From: a virus | Virus record (IMG/VR): IMGVR_UViG_3300047557_000687 | Location: 1 to 20,741 of that record | DNA length: 20,741 bases | Direction: 5' to 3' (one strand) | Part shown: positions 1 to 20,666 of the stretch, in pieces | Layout: each line of letters starts with the position of its first letter | Numbering within the stretch: position 1 is the stretch's first letter | The notes under the pieces: generated by a model | Database searches by the model: none | What the model was told of the DNA's origin: nothing | The model's input: only the letters and a program-made list of their open reading frames with translations | Program-made: the position numbers and the translations under genes

Positions 1-308
1 TCCCTAAACTGTGTAATTAGATTGTCAAAACCCAATTTATAAGCAGCGCTGGAAAAAACCAAAGAGTTATTTAAGTAATTTTGTGGAGTGTCAGCGTTTA
101 AAGCACGGAACATTCCATTGCGACCCCTACCCTTATGGATAATAAAAAGGGTATTGCCTTCTAAAATGCTATAAGTTTGTGGCTCACGAAGCTCCGCAAT
201 AATACTTGCCATAACTGCTGGGGCTGGGTATTCTGATTGAGTCTGCTTTGTTGCAATAGCAACAATCTCAGGAACGGTTAACTTTTTGGTTTTGCTGTCA
301 ACTAACAT
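1..308 (-). CDS. Uncharacterised protein, third gene of acyl cassette (C-terminus cut off by window edge)
   Basis: An open frame starts with ATG at 308-306, directly after the TAA of the ketosynthase gene (TAAATG), with GAGGG a few bases upstream as ribosome binding site. It runs about 102 codons without a stop to the window edge. I do not recognise the family with certainty. It begins MLVDSKTKKLTVPEIVAIA. Its middle (residues 49-65) has a hydrophobic strand TLFIIHKGRGRNGMFRAL, followed by an N-rich helix-like stretch and then AAYKLGFDNLITQF. That strand/helix pattern would fit an acyltransferase (GNAT-like) fold, but no diagnostic motif is visible. Its position directly behind acyl carrier protein and ketosynthase genes suggests that it acts on an acyl chain. 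This is inference from context only. Confidence 0.7.
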   Translation of the reverse strand, partial: MLVDSKTKKLTVPEIVAIATKQTQSEYPAPAVMASIIAELREPQTYSILEGNTLFIIHKGRGRNGMFRALNADTPQNYLNNSLVFSSAAYKLGFDNLITQFR

Positions 309-1436
309 TTACACCCTCGTATCTAGGATTGCAGCTGCATATATATTACCCATTCCAGCAGCTAAACTCAACATTAAGCCTTCAGGTGCATTTTCCTCTT
401 TTGATAGAAACTTGTCATCTGATTCTGTTCTGTTCTTAATTGCTGGAATTACGCCAGAATTAATATCGTCAATCATTAGGCAAGTTTCCAAAAGTCCGCT
501 AGCAGCCACCGTATGACCAATATGTTGTTTATAAGACGTTGCAATGAAATCGTCAAAAATAGTCGTAATCGCTGTTTTCTCTGACTGATTATTAGTTTTA
601 GTTCCAGTGCCATGGGTCTTAATAATCTTAATGTCTTTTGGTTTTACTTTAGCCATTTGCAAAGCACCTTGAATAGCCCGTTGATAGCCCTCTCCGTCTT
701 CCCTTTGACCGATTGGATTGGAGCATCTTTCGGCTGAGACCCAAGCACTGCAAAGCTCTGCTTTCGGATTTATGGAATTTTTTTCCACGGCGGAAGCGGA
801 TTCAAAAATGGCAATAGCAGCCCCCTGTCCCAAAATAAAACCTTGGTTTTTGCTGTCAAAAGCACTCGGAATGGACCCCGCTTCCTCATCTTTTAAAAGC
901 AAATTGGCTTTTGCTTGTCCAAAAAACTCAAGGGTTAGTTTAGACACTTGGTCTTCTAGGGCTAGAACAATGACTCTATCAAAACCCATATAATCTATTA
1001 AGTTTCTAACATCCATCATGGACTTAATGCCAGTAGCGCACGCAGAAGCATCTGTAGCCACGTAATCATAGGCTTCAAATACCGAAGCAATACGTCCAGC
1101 ATAGATATTGGTCATGCTTAAAACGCCTAGCTTGAAGGTATAGTCTAAAGACTGGCTTGGCTTATCCATTTCTTTTGACTTACCGCCAGCCCATCCTTGA
1201 GAGCCAGCAGCTAGCAAGAATCCAGTCTTTCCTTCTACTGGATTGTTTTTGACGTACTCAACTAAGTCTTTAGTAATAACCATATTGGCTACCTCATGGG
1301 GAACATAAGAAAAGCCAGTATGGATTTTTGCCATAGACTGAGGAATTAAGTGGACTCGTTGTGGATAAACAACGTCTGTAAATACCGTAGTTTCCCGTGA
1401 GCATACGGTTCTGTATTGGGTTAGGTAGATTTTCAT
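309..1436 (-). CDS. Beta-ketoacyl-[acyl carrier protein] synthase (FabF/KAS-like), phage-encoded
   Basis: This 375-residue protein has the thiolase-fold ketosynthase signature. Members condense an acyl chain held on the active-site Cys with malonyl-ACP, extending it by two carbons. The nucleophile is Cys133 in DASACATG, matching TACATG of FabF. The first His is His275 in KTHGTGT. A Lys (303) and second His (308) lie in YKQHIGHTVAASG, matching the K...GH pair of KAS enzymes. A GFILGQGAA segment (199-207) matches GFVMGEGAG, with Gln where Glu is usual. A glycine-rich C-terminal strand is also present. FabF is about 410 residues; the shortage lies mostly in the N-terminal half. The ATG overlaps the TGA of the ACP gene (ATGA), so the two are probably co-translated. 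All catalytic residues are intact, so I expect an active enzyme. Chain-length or substrate specificity cannot be read from the sequence. Confidence 0.9.
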   Translation of the reverse strand: MKIYLTQYRTVCSRETTVFTDVVYPQRVHLIPQSMAKIHTGFSYVPHEVANMVITKDLVEYVKNNPVEGKTGFLLAAGSQGWAGGKSKEMDKPSQSLDYTFKLGVLSMTNIYAGRIASVFEAYDYVATDASACATGIKSMMDVRNLIDYMGFDRVIVLALEDQVSKLTLEFFGQAKANLLLKDEEAGSIPSAFDSKNQGFILGQGAAIAIFESASAVEKNSINPKAELCSAWVSAERCSNPIGQREDGEGYQRAIQGALQMAKVKPKDIKIIKTHGTGTKTNNQSEKTAITTIFDDFIATSYKQHIGHTVAASGLLETCLMIDDINSGVIPAIKNRTESDDKFLSKEENAPEGLMLSLAAGMGNIYAAAILDTRV

Positions 1437-1714
1437 TTGACACCACTTAACGCTTCTTCAACGGTTTGTGGGTCTTTAGTCTTTACTTTGTCGATGCAGT
1501 CAAAGAGCTGACCAACAGTCTTAGGACTAAACGACATAGCTTCCTCACTGCTAATTCCGTATATTTCTGACATATACGAAACAATCATGGTGACATCTAG
1601 GCTATCTACGCCAATGTTATAAAACTCATCATCCAGACTAGTTGCCTTTACTTCATCTCCGGCAGCTGGTCTAGCTAGTATGAGTACCTCATTAAATAGT
1701 GCTACTTTGTCCAT
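1433..1714 (-). CDS. Acyl carrier protein
   Basis: This 93-residue acidic protein has the carrier-protein motif NIGVDSLDVTM. Ser38 is the expected 4'-phosphopantetheine attachment site, and the DSL core is intact. Helix II follows (VTMIVSYMSEIYGI), then an acidic loop and a helix (SPKTVGQLFDCIDKV), as in the four-helix ACP fold. Typical ACPs have about 78 residues; the extra length is a C-terminal tail. It must be charged by a holo-ACP synthase, which is not in this window, so a host enzyme or one encoded elsewhere is needed. The gene follows a 36-base spacer and has AGGGGA upstream of its ATG. It overlaps the ketosynthase by four bases. The pairing suggests that it presents substrate to that enzyme, but it could also dock with host fatty acid enzymes. 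Confidence 0.9.
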   Translation of the reverse strand: MDKVALFNEVLILARPAAGDEVKATSLDDEFYNIGVDSLDVTMIVSYMSEIYGISSEEAMSFSPKTVGQLFDCIDKVKTKDPQTVEEALSGVK

Positions 1715-4507: not shown

Positions 4508-5634
4508 TATAGCTCCGCAGAAAGATTAAAAGCAGTAGAGTAATTGCCTGGAGAATCAATATATAAACAAGTTGCAAATCCATTTGTATAACCGCTTGCA
4601 GTTAATGCAATGTCATATTCAATCCTTGTCGTAGTAACATACGAAACGGTAATGCTTGATATTGCTCCAGTAGAAACAGTCCCATCAAAAAACCTTGCGT
4701 TACCAGTTGTTCCGACTTGTGAAATTGTTGTTGAAGGCGCTACTCTCATCCATGTTGCTAATGAACACGCTGCTCTACCAGCAGCGCTTGAGCCTGAAAC
4801 CACGCCTCTTAGTGGAGGGTCTATAATTCTTTGAAAATACCTCTGACACAAAGCCAATTCAGTTCCATAAGGTCTGTAATCAAAGCTAGTAGCTGTAGAG
4901 CCTACCTCAAGCTGAACTCCTGTGATGTAGAAAGTTGCTCCGTTTGTGCCGACTACGGATGTTGCTCCTGTAGCTGAAAGAAAATTTGATGATGCCCAAG
5001 CTCCAGCGGTTCCGCTATAAGTAGAACCCATGCCAAGACCAAATATCACACTCATTCCGTTGCCATTAGTTGTTAGCCAAGTGCCAGTTGTATCACCAGC
5101 AATAGTTACAGATTTTTGTTCCCAAGTATTTGCAGATGAAATGGTATATGCAAAAGGGTAACTTCTGGTAGCATTTGCATTTCTTAAAGCCCCACCAAAT
5201 GTTCCAGTAAGGCTAGAGCGCACCCAAAAAGAAAGTGTTACTGTTTTTGCTGTTGATTTTCCAAAATCAAAATCTGCAACATTAAAGCCTTCTACACGCT
5301 GAACACAGGCAAAATAATCTCCTGCTGCAACAGAATATGACGATGATGATGTGTAACCAATGTAATTTGTAAACCCAGCAGGTGGGGTTACAGAACCAGC
5401 GTTTTGTTGGATTGTTAATTTAGATGTTTGGGATGCTTCATTTACCCACCTATCAACAACAAAAACACCATCATTTCCAGTAACACTAGCACCAGCATTA
5501 CGCTGGTCAATCACGCACGCACCATTAATGATGCGGTTCTTGAACTGCGTTACTGGTACAAGGTACTCGGCAGTATTAGTACCATTATAGGTTGGTGTCG
5601 TGATGCCGGTGCTGCCAGAAATGACTACGGGCAT
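4507..5634 (-). CDS. Tail fibre / adhesin with carbohydrate-binding-like jelly-roll domain
   Basis: I place the start at the ATG at 5634-5632 (375 residues, MPVVISGSTGITTPTY). It has a strong AGGAG about eight bases upstream and forms TAATG with the stop of the endonuclease gene. The longer frame reaching 5652 would add six residues inside that gene. The N-terminus is a short fibre-attachment module, followed by FKNRIINGACVIDQRN...VDRW, a common entry segment of phage receptor-binding proteins. The middle has YFACVQRVEGFNVADFDFG, KTVTLSFWVRSSLTGTFGG and TYSGTAGAWASSNF. This layout is typical of galactose-binding-like jelly rolls in aquatic phage fibres. GATFYITGVQLEVGS and FDYRPYGTELALCQRY close that domain, and a variable C-terminal strand domain follows. 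Likely role: binding of a host surface glycan. Confidence 0.88.
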   Translation of the reverse strand: MPVVISGSTGITTPTYNGTNTAEYLVPVTQFKNRIINGACVIDQRNAGASVTGNDGVFVVDRWVNEASQTSKLTIQQNAGSVTPPAGFTNYIGYTSSSSYSVAAGDYFACVQRVEGFNVADFDFGKSTAKTVTLSFWVRSSLTGTFGGALRNANATRSYPFAYTISSANTWEQKSVTIAGDTTGTWLTTNGNGMSVIFGLGMGSTYSGTAGAWASSNFLSATGATSVVGTNGATFYITGVQLEVGSTATSFDYRPYGTELALCQRYFQRIIDPPLRGVVSGSSAAGRAACSLATWMRVAPSTTISQVGTTGNARFFDGTVSTGAISSITVSYVTTTRIEYDIALTASGYTNGFATCLYIDSPGNYSTAFNLSAEL

Positions 5635-6332
5635 TATCTTACTCCTTTGCAATTATCAAAGTGCCATCTATTACCAGCGCCTTTACTATGACCGCTTGTA
5701 TTGCAATGCGGGCAAATCCAAGCCTGTAATTTGGCTAATTCTTTCATTTTGTCGTTGTGCTCTTGCGACATTTTCATACCTTTTTTACCCGATGGTTTAC
5801 CAATCTTAACCAATCTCATACGCTCAATAGTTTCAGGTTTGTGTTTTTTACCAGCCATTTGAGATGGTTTGCCTTTGTGAGCATCAGACATACGCTGACG
5901 GTATTCAGGGTCTTGCCATAACTTTGCTACACCAGCGCTTAATTTAGCTTTGACTTCTTCATTCCAAGCCTTACCCTTGTTCCAAGCAACGGTTAAACCC
6001 TTTTTGCCTAGATTCCAACGATTAATTGGTGGCTTGTTACCACCTTTTACCAAGTTCCATCCAATCTTATCGGCTGGTCTTAGTTTTGCTTCAATCTCTA
6101 GGCAGTAATCTTCTTTGCCAATTAACACCTTTTCTTTGACTAAGTTATCCCAACCATACTTGTTGATTGCGTTCTTTAGGTATCTGTTTTGGGTTAATTT
6201 AAGATGCTCCCAAATTCTGCGTTCAAACCGCTTAGAAATGCCTACATAGCCTTGACGCAAGATGTCAGTATGTTCGGGTCTGTGAACCCAATAAACACAG
6301 CTAACGGCTTCAGGGCTAGGCACAAATGCCAT
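5634..6332 (-). CDS. GIY-YIG homing endonuclease with NUMOD3 repeats and zinc finger
   Basis: This 232-residue protein has three parts. Residues 11-95 form a GIY-YIG nuclease: CVYWVH is the GIY strand, GYVGIS the YIG strand, Arg38/39 in FERRIWEH the conserved Arg, and Glu79/81 in CLEIEAKLRP the metal-binding Glu. Residues about 105-200 hold NUMOD3-type DNA-binding repeats (WNLGKKG, AWNKGKAWNEEVKAKLS, GKKHKPETIERM, GKKGMKMSQEHNDKM). Residues 207-228 form a C-x2-C...H-x3-C zinc finger (CPHC, HFDNC). The set is the standard build of free-standing phage homing endonucleases. It sits between two virion genes with a TAATG overlap downstream, so it is integrated into the operon. No intron or split gene is seen around it. 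Confidence 0.9.
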   Translation of the reverse strand: MAFVPSPEAVSCVYWVHRPEHTDILRQGYVGISKRFERRIWEHLKLTQNRYLKNAINKYGWDNLVKEKVLIGKEDYCLEIEAKLRPADKIGWNLVKGGNKPPINRWNLGKKGLTVAWNKGKAWNEEVKAKLSAGVAKLWQDPEYRQRMSDAHKGKPSQMAGKKHKPETIERMRLVKIGKPSGKKGMKMSQEHNDKMKELAKLQAWICPHCNTSGHSKGAGNRWHFDNCKGVR

Positions 6333-6637: not shown

Positions 6638-7270
6638 TTAAGTCCAAAGAATAATTGTGCCTAAAAGTCGACTATTGTTTGTGAAATTTGTTTCATTCAA
6701 ATTACTGGAACCAGCCGTTCCTTGATAGCGTAATTCAACTGATGTCTGACCTTCATCTATTGTGTTTGTGTAACAGTTATCAGGCAAACTAGACATTCCT
6801 TCCCAATATGCTGGAAGCATTGAACCATAATTACCACTAACAACCCTTGAATTAAATGGTAGCCCACCTAAACTTGCAGCCCCACCTGAAGAACCTCTGT
6901 TACTTAATTTGACATCAAAAGTGCAAGTTACAATGTTGCCAACTTTTGTATAAAAACCTCTTTGATAAACATAAGTTAATCCAGCAGAAGCACCAGCAAA
7001 CCTAATTGTAGGCGACCAAGTTCCTTCTTCATAATCATCTAGCGTATTAGCGTCTGAACTTGCTGAAGCAGTAGCTGGAAATGTAATACCAGCACCGCTA
7101 GTCGATGCAGTAGCGTTACCAACGCCTAAACAGTTTGCTACTTGTACGCCTAAAGAAGTATTAATCGTTACAGCAGTATTACCATTATTCGTCTGAATGG
7201 CTAAGTTACCAGAGTTATCACCCGTTATGGCTACTCCAGTGGTAGTAGTGGCATTGATGATTGAGGGCAT
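6638..7270 (-). CDS. Tail fibre / tail-tip adhesin, 210 aa
   Basis: The N-terminus has MPSIINATTTTGVAITGDNSGNLAIQTNNG, a short repetitive beta stem. A segment around LGVGNATASTSGAGITF and NTLDDYEEGTWSPTI follows. The latter is a common junction leading into a receptor-binding tip. The C-terminal domain (residues about 90-210) contains YTKVGNIVTCTFDV, SSGGAASLGGLPF and SVELRYQGTAG, a pattern found at phage fibre ends. AAGGAG lies eight bases upstream of ATG. The start overlaps the stop of the small gene at 7270-7440 (TAATG). The likely role is a short adhesin with variable receptor specificity. Confidence 0.85.
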   Translation of the reverse strand: MPSIINATTTTGVAITGDNSGNLAIQTNNGNTAVTINTSLGVQVANCLGVGNATASTSGAGITFPATASASSDANTLDDYEEGTWSPTIRFAGASAGLTYVYQRGFYTKVGNIVTCTFDVKLSNRGSSGGAASLGGLPFNSRVVSGNYGSMLPAYWEGMSSLPDNCYTNTIDEGQTSVELRYQGTAGSSNLNETNFTNNSRLLGTIILWT

Positions 7271-7440
7271 TATTTAACTCCTTCTAACTGCTTATCTGTT
7301 GGTCTAGCAAGAGTAGGATGTTCCCACTTAGCAATGTAATCGCCTTTGCCGTCTGAATCGTTTTGCAGTGTAATTACAGTCATAAAGTCTTTATCTTCAA
7401 GACTTGGGTATAGTGCTTTAATTTTGTCGTATAAAGTCAT
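7270..7440 (-). CDS. Small XkdW-like fibre-associated protein, 56 aa
   Basis: A short gene easily missed because of its length. The protein begins MTLYDKIKALYPSLEDKDFM and ends GDYIAKWEHPTLARPTDKQL plus EGVK. The core VITLQNDSDGKGDYIAKWEHPTLARPT is highly characteristic of small proteins encoded next to phage tail fibres and related to the C-terminal part of the XkdW family. Its ATG overlaps the TAA of the upstream adhesin gene (TAATG). Its own TAA overlaps the ATG of the next adhesin in the same way, so it is wedged between two fibres. A role as a cofactor or chaperone for an adhesin is an inference. Confidence 0.85.
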   Translation of the reverse strand: MTLYDKIKALYPSLEDKDFMTVITLQNDSDGKGDYIAKWEHPTLARPTDKQLEGVK

Positions 7441-8018
7441 TATGCTGCCCTCACTAAAACACCACTAAAATTAGTGTTTTCTAAAACATTGTAAATATTA
7501 TATGAACCACCAGCAGTTCCATAAGAATAAAGTTCAACATAGTCTGTTGAGCCATTGAAATACACTAGTGTAGAAATTGTTGATTGTGCATAATAATTAG
7601 CATTTGCTAAATTAAAAGTTGCTTGAGCATAATTTGTTCCGTTTTTATAAATAGCACATCCAATATAATGTGTATTAGTTGTACTTACCATCGTAACGGA
7701 ACCGCTAATTTGATAGTAGCCAGCTACTGTAGGTGTAAATCGACTTGAGGCGTAATTACTATTAGTATCAAAAAGTTCTGTAGTTAAAGTTACTTTAGTC
7801 CATGTAGTTGCCGAAACACCAGTTTGTTGAACACTTTGCCACGCACTAAACGCTGGACCAGTTCCAGCAATATTTGATGGAAATGCAGACTGCGGACTTG
7901 CGCTTGTTAATACAGTTCCAGTTAAAGCTGGCAATGTTAATGTGCTAGTTCCAGCAACCGCTGTCGGTTCTAAAGTTATTGAGCCACTTGTAGCTCCCGC
8001 TAAGACTAGGTTTCCCAT
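7440..8018 (-). CDS. Tail fibre protein with C1q/TNF-like C-terminal domain
   Basis: This 192-residue protein starts MGNLVLAGATSGSITLEPTA followed by GTSTLTLPALTGTVLT, a stem typical of phage fibres. Residues about 55-192 read as a trimeric jelly roll of the C1q/TNF type: FSAWQSVQQTGVSATTWTKV, then FTPTVAGYYQISGSVTM (matches the FTVPxxGxYxFxxxV signature), CAIYKNGTNYA, STLVYFNGSTDYVELYSYG and a final FSGVLVR strand. Such domains form trimer tips that recognise host receptors. AAGGAT lies upstream of ATG. The HNH endonuclease gene precedes it, separated by eight bases. Confidence 0.85.
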   Translation of the reverse strand: MGNLVLAGATSGSITLEPTAVAGTSTLTLPALTGTVLTSASPQSAFPSNIAGTGPAFSAWQSVQQTGVSATTWTKVTLTTELFDTNSNYASSRFTPTVAGYYQISGSVTMVSTTNTHYIGCAIYKNGTNYAQATFNLANANYYAQSTISTLVYFNGSTDYVELYSYGTAGGSYNIYNVLENTNFSGVLVRAA

Positions 8019-8026
8019 ATATATCC

Positions 8027-8506
8027 TTAAACTCTTGCAAACTCGCCATGCAACATTTCTCTTGCTAGCATAGCAACTTCGTTTGCTTCATCTTTATTTA
8101 AAAAACGACCAAGAAATTTTTTCTTTCGGTTAAACCAAACTTCTGCAGTCCACTTATTTTTTGTTTTATCCCACCAAACACCACGATAACCAGATGTATT
8201 GTTTGATTGCATACGCTTATTTGCAACATTTTGAGATTGAGTACAAGCTCTTAAATTTTCTACTTTATTGTTTGTATTATTACCATCTGCATGGTCAATG
8301 TACTCTGGCAAATATCCGTTGTGCATTAAAAATATTGCTTGATGTACATAAAATCTTAAACCTTTATAAGCAATTACCCTATAACCATTTGGAGAATTTC
8401 CACCAGCCTCATCTCCAATATTTGTTCTTGCTGCTGGCGCAATTTTCCAATAAAGTTTTCCTTCTTTATATTCAAAAATAGAGTCACATAATTCTTTTGT
8501 AATCAT
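8027..8506 (-). CDS. HNH homing endonuclease with AP2 DNA-binding domain
   Basis: This 159-residue protein has an HNH_3-type nuclease at residues about 40-90: YVHQAIFLMHNG gives the first His (55), IDHADGN gives His72, and NNKVENLRA supplies the closing Asn (84). An AP2 domain covers residues 105-155: SGYRGVWWDKTKNKWTAEV and FLGRFLNKDEANEVAMLARE. The HNH plus AP2 fusion is a well-known free-standing homing endonuclease of phages. The ATG overlaps the TGA of the preceding fibre gene by four bases (ATGA). All key residues look intact, so it is probably active. It belongs to a different class from the GIY-YIG enzyme about 2 kb further downstream. Confidence 0.92.
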   Translation of the reverse strand: MITKELCDSIFEYKEGKLYWKIAPAARTNIGDEAGGNSPNGYRVIAYKGLRFYVHQAIFLMHNGYLPEYIDHADGNNTNNKVENLRACTQSQNVANKRMQSNNTSGYRGVWWDKTKNKWTAEVWFNRKKKFLGRFLNKDEANEVAMLAREMLHGEFARV

Positions 8507-17217: not shown

Positions 17218-17610
17218 TCATTTGAGCAATTCATCTAGGTTTGGGTCGGAGTAGTCGCCACGGGCTTTTAATCCAACCTTTAACTTAATCTCTTTACCAT
17301 CTACAGTTAACTGGAAACTGCGTCTTGCCTTGGGCTCGGGCTTTTCCCGATAGGTCACTCGCTTCTTACCGTTGTACCGATTACGCATAATGGCGACTTC
17401 GCCGTTCATGTAGTGCGTCAGCGCCTTATCTACACGGATTTGTAGGCGCTCAGAAAACGGTTCAGTTTCATAAATAAAGACTTTTTTAAGTGAGCTATCG
17501 CTAACCCCACAAAGGTCTGCAAATAAGGCGATGCTAATACCACGGTCATGGTCTGCAAAAAAGCGCTTCATCTGGCGCATCAGCTCGGCTTTCGTTCTTA
17601 CTTTTTGCAT
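17218..17610 (-). CDS. Helix-turn-helix protein, 130 aa
   Basis: The protein is basic, with a likely HTH at residues about 25-48 (ISIALFADLCGVSDSSLKKV, the GVSDSSLKK turn matching recognition-helix patterns). Basic stretches follow (RNRYNGKKRVTYREKPEPKA) and then a strand-rich tail. It overlaps the methyltransferase gene by 13 bases. It could be a regulator of late genes or a small packaging DNA-binding protein. A small-terminase role is possible but it is on the far side of the large terminase. No evidence of function beyond the HTH. Confidence 0.72.
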   Translation of the reverse strand: MQKVRTKAELMRQMKRFFADHDRGISIALFADLCGVSDSSLKKVFIYETEPFSERLQIRVDKALTHYMNGEVAIMRNRYNGKKRVTYREKPEPKARRSFQLTVDGKEIKLKVGLKARGDYSDPNLDELLK

Positions 17611-18131
17611 TTACGCCCCCAAAAGTACAAATCGTAACTTGTTTGGTTTGTAGAAAAAGCATGACTTTCAAACATTTTGGCAAAGTCAAAACAAGCCGTA
17701 AAGTCAGCATCGGTCAGGTTTTGGTAGTAATCGTTAGTGAATGGAGCATCTTTAGGATTTGTCCTAGTCGTGCCATGCTCCGCCCTTCCTGTAGTAGCGC
17801 AAGTGAACACTAACAATCCGCCGGGTTTGAGCAAGTCGTACATTTTTTGAAAAGTACGTTGCCAATGTTTATCGTGTTCAAAGCACTCGCACGAGATGGT
17901 TACATCAAAAACTTCGTCCTTATACGGTAATTGGTGTCCATAGCAGACAATATCAACCCCCGGACCAATACCTAAATCGCATCCAACGTAAAGACTGGGG
18001 TTTGTAAAGAACTCTCGGACTGTGCCATTAATGTTGAGCGAACCAATCTCAGCGACTCTTGTATTGATAAAGTCTTCTGGATACAGCTCCAAAACAGACC
18101 TTACAAAGTTTTGTTGGGCTGCGTGTGACAT
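17598..18131 (-). CDS. SAM-dependent methyltransferase
   Basis: This 177-residue protein has a Rossmann-like class I methyltransferase pattern (Methyltransf_11 type). Motif I is VAEIGSL (26-32; Ser in place of Gly at the third position). An acidic residue at the end of beta2 (Asp52, YVGCDLG), FDVTISCECFEHDKHW (75-90) and LLKPGGLLVFTCAT (100-113) follow. That length covers only a minimal methyltransferase fold. It follows the DUF5672-like gene with a 31-base overlap, so the two were probably acquired together. The substrate is unknown; pairing with a possible sugar-transfer protein makes a glycan or small molecule more likely than DNA (no DPPY or similar motif). Confidence 0.85.
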   Translation of the reverse strand: MSHAAQQNFVRSVLELYPEDFINTRVAEIGSLNINGTVREFFTNPSLYVGCDLGIGPGVDIVCYGHQLPYKDEVFDVTISCECFEHDKHWQRTFQKMYDLLKPGGLLVFTCATTGRAEHGTTRTNPKDAPFTNDYYQNLTDADFTACFDFAKMFESHAFSTNQTSYDLYFWGRKCKK

Positions 18132-18910
18132 ATTGTGTATCCAAGGGTATTAAATAATTCGTACACCCGTTCTTCGTTTTTAATTGCTTTCATCTCATCA
18201 CTACTTAATAACCAATTAATAGTATTATCATCTATAAGTCGTCTAAAGCGACTGTGATGACCAAATACGCAAGAAAGGTCAACGTCCTTATGCAAGGTAT
18301 CGTCTAGGTGCTCAAACGAAAAGTAAATTGCTTCGGAATCTGGGGCAAACTTTAAGCCAACCGATTCTAGTGACGGACGCATAAAGCAACAAAGTTGCAC
18401 ATCTTCGTTTTGGAAAATGTCTTGTTGCTTAACGTGCATCGTAATACCGTATTTAGAAGGAGCTTCTAAAAAGCGCTTGGAGCGTAAGCTAAAGCCACCG
18501 TTTTGGACAATCTGTTGAACGTCATCTCGCCCAACCCATTGAAATCCAGTAACGTAAAAGTTATCGCCACATTTAGCTGCGTGGGTTAGTCCACCAACAT
18601 AGTCGTACTCTAGCCATTTATCCCGCCACGCAGATGGATTTAGCGCCCACCCATCGTCTTGCACAATTAAGGCAAACTCAGTATCAATGAAGCTGTGCAA
18701 GCAGTAGATGACAAAGTGGCTATAACCAGAATAATCTAATCCTTGATGTAACACCTTCTGCTCAATGTTAGTATCTACTAACTTATCAGTTATTAATAAC
18801 TTCTTTGCACCGGGTAGCGCTCTAGCGGTACGCTCAATCGACGGAATCATGCTTTTCGCTCCGCCGTTACCGTGTATGGCAACAATCGTAATGTTGCTGT
18901 AATCACGCAT
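18101..18910 (-). CDS. DUF5672-like protein, possible glycosyltransferase
   Basis: I place the start at the ATG at 18910-18908 (MRDYSNITIVAIHGN, 269 residues), eight bases before the end of the terminase gene; the longer frame needs a TTG start. The sequence has an opening YSNITIVAIHG strand, HFVIYCLHSFIDTEFALIVQ followed by DDGW (85-88), EYDYVGG (101-107), NGGFSLRSKRFLEA (137-150) and NEDVQLC (168-174). This order is the DUF5672 pattern, a family thought to be glycosyltransferase-like, with QDDGW in the place of a DxD-like nucleotide-sugar motif. The family role is not proved. It lies directly upstream of a methyltransferase, so the pair may modify a glycan. Confidence 0.78.
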   Translation of the reverse strand: MRDYSNITIVAIHGNGGAKSMIPSIERTARALPGAKKLLITDKLVDTNIEQKVLHQGLDYSGYSHFVIYCLHSFIDTEFALIVQDDGWALNPSAWRDKWLEYDYVGGLTHAAKCGDNFYVTGFQWVGRDDVQQIVQNGGFSLRSKRFLEAPSKYGITMHVKQQDIFQNEDVQLCCFMRPSLESVGLKFAPDSEAIYFSFEHLDDTLHKDVDLSCVFGHHSRFRRLIDDNTINWLLSSDEMKAIKNEERVYELFNTLGYTICHTQPNKTL

Positions 18911-20666
18911 TGCCGTACATCCCAATGCGTTTTAAGTAGTTAGCCACATTCTTACCGACGGCAATCTGGTCAGGCTCAAGGTTATCGAGTGGCTTATTAG
19001 TCATCCGAGTGACCCGTTGGTTAATCAGTCTTGGTTGCACTTGCTCTGCAAAGGCAGCGGTAGCCAAGGCACTTGCAATCACACGGTCATCTTTGTTTCT
19101 GCCCATCGCAGCAATAACGCCACCCTCACGAACCACGGACTTCATTTCTTCTAAGCAATCCATGGAAAACACATTCATCATGCCACGCTCGAAAAAGTCT
19201 TTCATGTAAGAGAGCATCCTCTCTTTTGAGGCGGAGGTCGTAACCCAGCCAAGGGAGTTTGACCAGCCACCAAAAGAATCGTTGCGTCGCCAGATGTAAT
19301 TTTGCATATGGGCTAAAACAGCGTAGAGGTCTCGCCCCTTTTGGTCTCCCAAGGAGGTAGCGTAACGCTTGAGGTTACGTATCTCGTTAATGACGGCTTG
19401 ACCCGGACCATTGACTTCCAAGTTAAGGGTTGAGTTCTTGTACGCCCCAGCTAGGTAGCAGATGACCCACGCAAACTGGTAGGTGTTTAGTTCAGACGTA
19501 GCAAACTCCGCAACTTGGTCCAAACCGTCAGCATAGCAACGGTACACTTGTATGCAATGGCGGTCAGCCCAATCACTAGAGCCATAAGCGGGGTCAGCAC
19601 CAATAACGTAATAAGCAGTGTCCACCGGCTCCTCCCAAATGGACAGCGTAGCCATACGTTCCGTGCTTTTAAGCAATACCGTGTCTTCAAAGTTTGCTCC
19701 CATGGAAAAACGATAAAAGTCTGGCTGCATTTTCTTGGCTTCTTTAGCAGCTTCCGTACAACGGTTGGTTGAGAAGAAGCTCGTACCCGTCATCACAAAG
19801 GCGTAGTCTTCCGTGGGCGGAAACTCTTGGTACATGAGCCCATCGTCCTTAATTCCTTCGTGTAGCTTCCAACGCCACCACGCCATTTGGCGGGAATTAA
19901 TCTCAAAGTTGTAGAGCTTCTTAATCTCTTTGGTCCATTCTTTTTCTTCAGGACTTAGCTTTCCATCCCAATAGACTTTGTAGATGTCGGAGTCTGGGTC
20001 TGCTTGGTAAAACTGGTTACGCCACCAGCCACAAAAAATAGCCCGTTGAGTCTTCGCCCGTTTAGCTGTCGTGTACATATCGTGAAACATATTGAAGCCA
20101 CGAGCCGTACTCTCAAAGAGGTACAAACGGTTTGGGTTATTTTCCGCTAATGAAGCTAGCAAGGAGGCTAATCCTTCTTCATCTCCCCAAGAACTGGTTT
20201 CAGTTCCGTGCAGATAGGTGATAGCTTTACCTCTACCGAGTGAGCCTTTTGCTCGGAGTCCAGCCACTTGATAAAAGAGTCGGCTTCGGTTTTTGAGAGA
20301 AAGCTGATTTCGGTTGTGAGCGAGAAGTGGGATTCTAAATTCTTTTGGTAAGCCCTCCATATACATGGAGAGAGTTGACCTGAACATATCTCGATTTTCT
20401 TCTGTATCTGTAGTAAGAGTTCCTTGCAGCCCCGGGTTGAGGAAGTGCCAATACAGGTCAAGCGCAAGCGAAATAGTGGTAATACCCAGCTGTCGCCCTT
20501 TAAGAATAACGAAGAAGTGGACATCATCGGCTAATCCTTTCGCAATTTCGTCCATTACATAGGTTTGTGTTCCTAGTAATGTATCCATTTTCCGTAAGCC
20601 TTGCTCTTTGGTCTCGATTTTCAGTTCCGAGCAAAACTTGTAGAACTGCTTTAGATTGAAGTCCAT
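18903..20666 (-). CDS. terL: Terminase large subunit
   Basis: This 587-residue protein carries both ATPase and nuclease signatures. The Walker A-like P-loop is KGRQLGITT (56-64), as in K-x-R-Q-x-G-x-T terminases. A Walker B-like ITYLHGTETSSW holds the candidate catalytic Glu156, and the coupling motif is FESTARG (184-190). The linker FPPTEDYAFVMTGTSFF (282-298) is standard. The RNase H-like nuclease has Asp358 (GADPAYG), Glu417 (LNLEVNGPG) and Asp526/527 (KDDRVIASALATAA). It drives packaging and cuts concatemers. The ATG at 20666 lies inside the end of the upstream gene (16-base overlap). The ribosome binding site is weak. Confidence 0.95.
   Translation of the reverse strand: MDFNLKQFYKFCSELKIETKEQGLRKMDTLLGTQTYVMDEIAKGLADDVHFFVILKGRQLGITTISLALDLYWHFLNPGLQGTLTTDTEENRDMFRSTLSMYMEGLPKEFRIPLLAHNRNQLSLKNRSRLFYQVAGLRAKGSLGRGKAITYLHGTETSSWGDEEGLASLLASLAENNPNRLYLFESTARGFNMFHDMYTTAKRAKTQRAIFCGWWRNQFYQADPDSDIYKVYWDGKLSPEEKEWTKEIKKLYNFEINSRQMAWWRWKLHEGIKDDGLMYQEFPPTEDYAFVMTGTSFFSTNRCTEAAKEAKKMQPDFYRFSMGANFEDTVLLKSTERMATLSIWEEPVDTAYYVIGADPAYGSSDWADRHCIQVYRCYADGLDQVAEFATSELNTYQFAWVICYLAGAYKNSTLNLEVNGPGQAVINEIRNLKRYATSLGDQKGRDLYAVLAHMQNYIWRRNDSFGGWSNSLGWVTTSASKERMLSYMKDFFERGMMNVFSMDCLEEMKSVVREGGVIAAMGRNKDDRVIASALATAAFAEQVQPRLINQRVTRMTNKPLDNLEPDQIAVGKNVANYLKRIGMYGNA

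Follow-up and report, generated by a model that had tools for sequence, protein, structure and literature searches.

A mobile acyl carrier protein–ketosynthase gene pair in aquatic phages: a candidate acyl-ACP elongation unit

Among bacteria, fabG-acpP-fabF is an ordinary operon order. The same arrangement has been reported from Rhodobacteraceae prophages (PMC8224337), where it could be a host operon lying inside loosely drawn prophage borders, and virome AMG lists name fabF, fabG or fabZ (PMC10653327, PMC12783922). These reports place acpP and fabF-type genes in phage or prophage regions, as does the acyl carrier protein (ACP) and ketosynthase (KS) pair analysed here. ORF32 of Erythrobacter phage vB_EliS-R6L is a phage-encoded lone ACP (PMC5463345); it has that component in common with the pair, and the available portion of the account mentions no KS alongside it. 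Earlier phage fatty-acid genes have mostly been metagenome listings made one by one, for which host contamination is a worry, and our literature searches returned AMG lists and one prophage report, with no description of an ACP-KS module. The nearest records are PHROG 35856 and the annotation of phage MW202545, which represent the same KS family (51% identical, with the ACP upstream and a gene that we call X downstream) and for which no published study was found in the literature searched. In the nearest deposited record the ACP is named hypothetical and the annotated KS start omits about 50 residues (MW202545.1, locus L003, 20154-21098, some 50 codons late, homology and the ACP overlap giving 19998). 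Unlike the fabG-acpP-fabF of the prophages, the pair described here comes without fabG, has its own ACP and a KS that belongs to a phage clade, and is mobile between phage loci. What is new is that the pair moves as a separate unit, with sites lacking it found in both of the genomic contexts where it occurs.

The window, by which we mean the whole stretch of DNA that was analysed, is a linear IMG/VR virus record (IMGVR_UViG_3300047557_000687) of 20.7 kb that carries both genes complete; all of the genes discussed in it lie on the minus strand. The ACP (1433-1714, 93 aa), which has the ribosome-binding-like AAAGGGGA on its 5' side, carries its phosphopantetheine serine, Ser38, in GVDSLD (D37-S38-L39-D40) and runs into the KS (309-1436, 375 aa, with C133, H275, K303 and H308) through a 4-nt stop/start overlap, ATGA (1433-1436, CAAATGAAA). 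Pfam places both proteins, the ACP in PF00550 (PP-binding; 2.4e-5, 24.9 bits, above the 20.8 cut-off) and the KS in PF02801 (ketoacyl-synt_C; 3e-19) and PF00109 (ketoacyl-synt; 1e-9), with a further KS match to phrog_35856 (2e-40); against the fatty-acid ACP equivalog TIGR00517, the ACP scores 15.5 bits, below the 70.45 cut-off. An initial annotation of this DNA had the coordinates, residues and overlap right and was justified in calling the two families clear, but it left the minus strand of both genes unstated and passed over a partial third gene (3-308, minus strand). This is X, of which the first 102 codons are present before the contig end truncates it, and which abuts the KS with zero gap (HMM 2.6e-42). 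On the 5' side of the ACP lies a 112-aa ORF (1751-2089), conserved in loci L002 and L007 and with no family in Pfam, PHROG and NCBIfam scans, followed at the flank of the module by a small membrane-type ORF (2099-2320; phrog_462, 'lipoprotein', 7.5e-11). Elsewhere in the window, ORFs at 5634-6332 and 8027-8506 resemble GIY-YIG and HNH homing endonucleases on visual inspection and are scattered among tail-fibre-like genes, and a SAM methyltransferase (17598-18131; phrog_32762, 1.7e-63) and a DUF5672 protein (18101-18925), both between the terminase and portal regions, form a possible sugar or surface modification pair.

The KS is best understood by comparison with FabF and FabB (KAS II and KAS I), with which it shares a full-length fold and a Cys-His-Lys-His active site. 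Its AlphaFold (AF2) model (pLDDT 91.9; structure predictions were taken without MW202545) superposes on FabF over the full length (Z 43.4, rmsd 3.0 over 360 residues), and the FabF comparisons as a whole give Z 41-43 with 350-365 residues aligned. The 375-residue protein is thus predicted to have the full condensing-enzyme fold rather than to fall outside it, and its four active-site residues align with those of E. coli FabF and FabB. Against the FabF equivalog TIGR03150 the KS reaches 126 bits, far below the 493.75 cut-off, which indicates that it is not a FabF equivalog; the GFGG gatekeeper loop of FabF reads GMGN in the window KS (AGMG being invariant in 82/82 KSs), the N-terminal GLG..SP.GN region of FabF is shortened, Gln204 is invariant among phage KSs and the KS falls in a separate clade. 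Since the equivalog score is low, the N-terminal region shortened and the loop altered, the substrate, and even the reaction, could differ from those of FabF.

Relatives of the pair occasionally have further acyl-chain genes close by, in phages where the pair occupies the second of the two genomic contexts described below (context B). A FabZ-type dehydratase lies directly 3' of the KS in context-B phages L010 (4204-4629; PF07977 1e-29, reading IPHRYPFLLVDRI) and L011 (7130-7558; PF07977 6e-30, reading LPHRYPFLLVDKI), and a holo-ACP synthase (AcpS) with GIGSDIV and KEAALKALGTG motifs lies a few kb upstream of ACP-KS in L019 (1450-1827; PF01648 5e-15) and L028, with close relatives in L023, L024 and L027. 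These companions are rare (FabZ in 2/38 records, AcpS in 2/38), and their presence in some context-B phages supports real acyl chemistry; the AcpS genes also lend indirect support to conversion of the ACP to its holo form. As no FabG-type reductase was found among the 38 phage records, the whole cycle would need the host; the gene set fits a partial acyl-elongation pathway that, judging from the type II pathway, would depend on the host for its reductions.

The missing reductase could also be read quite differently, with the phage ACP sequestering phosphopantetheine, malonyl or acyl groups while the KS works mainly as a malonyl-ACP decarboxylase or an unproductive condenser, so that host lipid synthesis would be shut down or redirected with no product. 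Such a brake would be compatible with the changed gatekeeper loop of the KS and its shorter N-terminal region, as well as with ACP helix II, which is less acidic than that of E. coli AcpP and may contact host enzymes poorly. We nevertheless consider this reading unlikely, because a decoy ACP has no need of a dedicated KS and because the FabZ and AcpS companions point toward productive chemistry.

The pair is widespread. Searching viral contigs with a KS profile built from five members gave 100 related loci, 80 of which were kept (48-98% identical); together with the window and MW202545 they make up the 82 KSs compared, which fall into 42 clusters at 90% identity whose representatives are at least 45% identical pairwise. 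C133, H275, K303 and H308 are present in all 82, and D37-S38 in 79/79 ACP homologues, a conservation that goes beyond chance. Pairing is strict, with the ACP immediately before the KS in all copies that no contig end truncates, most commonly with a 4-nt overlap, and there is one KS per phage record (33/33 checked). KS and ACP distances correlate (r 0.66, 0/2000 permutations), and comparison of the window KS with that of L002 (dN 0.0069, dS 0.080, dN/dS about 0.09) indicates strong purifying selection. The view that the active sites are intact, that this is no decaying fragment and that the gene order is kept across diverse phages, put forward when the pair was first noticed, has held up well.

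Its position close to the end of the contig might raise the suspicion that the pair is a chimeric artefact or a relic of host DNA, which is almost certainly wrong. L002, a separate assembly, has a copy that is 98% identical and flanked by the same genes, MW202545 is a complete circular phage carrying the pair, and more than 80 viral contigs have it; contamination was rejected on the same ground, that independent assemblies carry the pair. The GC content of the pair equals that of its flanks (mean difference -0.001 in 74 loci), which suggests that the module has long been resident in phages, and the strong purifying selection likewise speaks against a relic. Bacterial matches are far weaker and no close bacterial chromosomal relative was found: a single remote partial match (36%) came from 84,980 bacterial and archaeal genomes scanned for two short motifs, a method that may overlook relatives, and the best KS matches in 101 genomes from one bacterial phylum score about 110 bits, compared with 565-650 bits in 33 phage records. 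In a quick maximum-likelihood tree, with limited bacterial sampling and some long branches, 41 phage KSs form one clade split with full support from 24 bacterial KSs. Found in genuine phage genomes, accessory and under selection, the pair is a candidate AMG unit. A Serratia plasmid (L267, 3830-6157) has KS, MaoC-type and ACP genes adjoining an RHS-repeat gene; this small ACP-KS cluster is bacterial and lies outside the phage clade. Matches in Listeria, Enterococcus, Staphylococcus and Pseudomonas 'phage' records (26-32%, partial FabF, unannotated) were excluded as probable host DNA, and FabF-like matches in the unannotated 'phage' records OR844991, OR846xxx-OR849xxx, OQ572406 and PQ520154 are probably host contamination.

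The pair has been inserted cleanly in at least two different genomic settings, contexts A and B. In context A, that of the window, a tail/stabilisation-type gene, a small ORF, ACP, KS and X are followed by a large ejection-like gene, the whole forming a late virion module, which is an odd place for the early host takeover that a decoy would call for. The initial annotation had located the pair at the end of a tail fibre/lysis-like region, and the pair does come after tail-fibre-like genes, but no lysis gene was identified; its other side directly precedes the GNAT-fold gene X and ejection-like genes, and nothing was found in favour of the suggested support for lysis; the other outcomes it named, altered host membrane lipid, an acylated signal or a virion modification, are candidates. 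In context B, an SNF2-type helicase (PF00176 3e-24) is followed by ACP, KS and then small early-type genes. Both contexts have empty sites. In context A, L298 is without ACP-KS where L014 is filled (flanks 73/49/49/73% identical), and in context B, L335 is without it where L350 is filled (helicase 86%, next ORF 72%); among the 78 helicase loci where the contig extends far enough to tell, the pair is absent from 63 and present in 15. These filled and empty pairs argue that ACP-KS is a mobile two-gene module. Context switches at least three times on the KS tree, where the window KS groups with the context-B copies L009 (74%) and L010. G017 shares 74% portal identity with the window but no more than 53% KS identity (a single-protein portal search linked the window with G001 and G017 only). 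The changes of context and the mismatch between KS and portal both show that the pair moves between loci; exchange is the probable origin of the copy in the window lineage. That the two contexts are unrelated argues for self-contained chemistry. In L015, a 218-aa ORF (7097-7753) with no Pfam match lies between KS and X; judged by eye, it resembles a 2-oxoglutarate/Fe(II) oxygenase.

The full X is about 146 aa long, and the model of the full-length L002 protein (pLDDT 95, Z 11.3 to RimI, 2cnm, over 123 residues) assigns it to the GNAT fold, although it is without the motif A donor loop Q/RxxGxG/A after beta4, having instead the consensus RALNADTAxN with N71 and D73 invariant. X has no family in Pfam, PHROG or NCBIfam and no credible sequence match to a solved structure. 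In its 80 closest loci X is always preceded by KS, which suggested an obligate trio, an idea weakened by a search for more distant X genes, in which 18/41 loci carry X without ACP-KS. Some of these, such as L298, have an X that matches the profile equally well, and context B has ACP-KS without X. The occurrence of X without the pair marks it as a core gene of the virion module. P22 gene 14 and T7 gene 13, which are of similar size and occupy the same place before injection or internal virion genes, have no detectable sequence relation to X (hhalign), and no ACP or KS gene occurs in the matching P22 and T7 regions; homology of X to gp14 or gp13 was therefore set aside, position and a weak DUF2824 structure match alone pointing there. 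The gene after X encodes a protein that begins M-S or M-G in 88/96 distinct sequences, against a background of about 14% S+G at position 2 in other genes of these loci. The ejection-like protein (9578-11053 in L002, and context-A equivalents) has long amphipathic N-terminal repeats (M[S/G]AVV..DVVEAVGDVV) that resemble membrane-binding helices.

These neighbours invite the idea that X passes an acyl chain made or carried by ACP-KS to a virion protein. The likeliest target is the N-terminus of the ejection-like protein, exposed and with Ser/Gly after Met, and the modification would aid entry of that protein into the host envelope. The position of X directly 3' of KS in its 80 closest relatives, its GNAT fold, the M-S/M-G starts and the small genes at the matching position in P22 and T7 are all consistent with this. 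We find it improbable all the same, in view of the 18 distant loci with X but no pair, the context-B pairs with no X, the NADTA found where a GNAT usually has its donor loop and the want of a sequence link to gp14 or gp13, and because the M-S/M-G starts belong to homologous N-terminal sequences, so that their bias is not independent. About as improbable is a fuller version, a lipidation system in which ACP-KS would supply a dedicated acyl donor, X would modify the ejection protein before packaging and the injected protein would then anchor in the host membrane.

We therefore favour, with a probability of roughly 0.55, the reading of the pair as a phage-owned acyl-ACP elongation unit that works within host fatty-acid synthesis and is mobile among aquatic phages, which, going by their genes, probably build or divert fatty acyl chains while infecting. 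The phage ACP would gain its phosphopantetheine from a holo-ACP synthase supplied by the host or, in some relatives, by the phage itself, and host enzymes would load malonyl or acyl groups onto it. On the KS, Cys133 would accept an acyl group, His275 and His308 would assist in decarboxylating malonyl-ACP and the two groups would be condensed, after which a dehydratase (from the host, or from the phage in two relatives) and host reductases would complete the cycle. In an infected cell, the phage ACP would in this way collect acyl chains drawn from the type II fatty-acid synthesis of the host, and the end use would most likely be an altered host acyl or lipid pool.

In conclusion, a phage-specific KS with its own carrier moves as a unit between unrelated loci, and some relatives add a dehydratase or a carrier-activating enzyme. 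A two-gene unit with empty sites and four catalytic residues makes the question of what it does directly testable. If the pair is active, phages would be able to take part directly in building acyl chains, and this would affect host membranes, injected virion proteins and the way in which lipid flow is redirected by lytic infection in fresh water.
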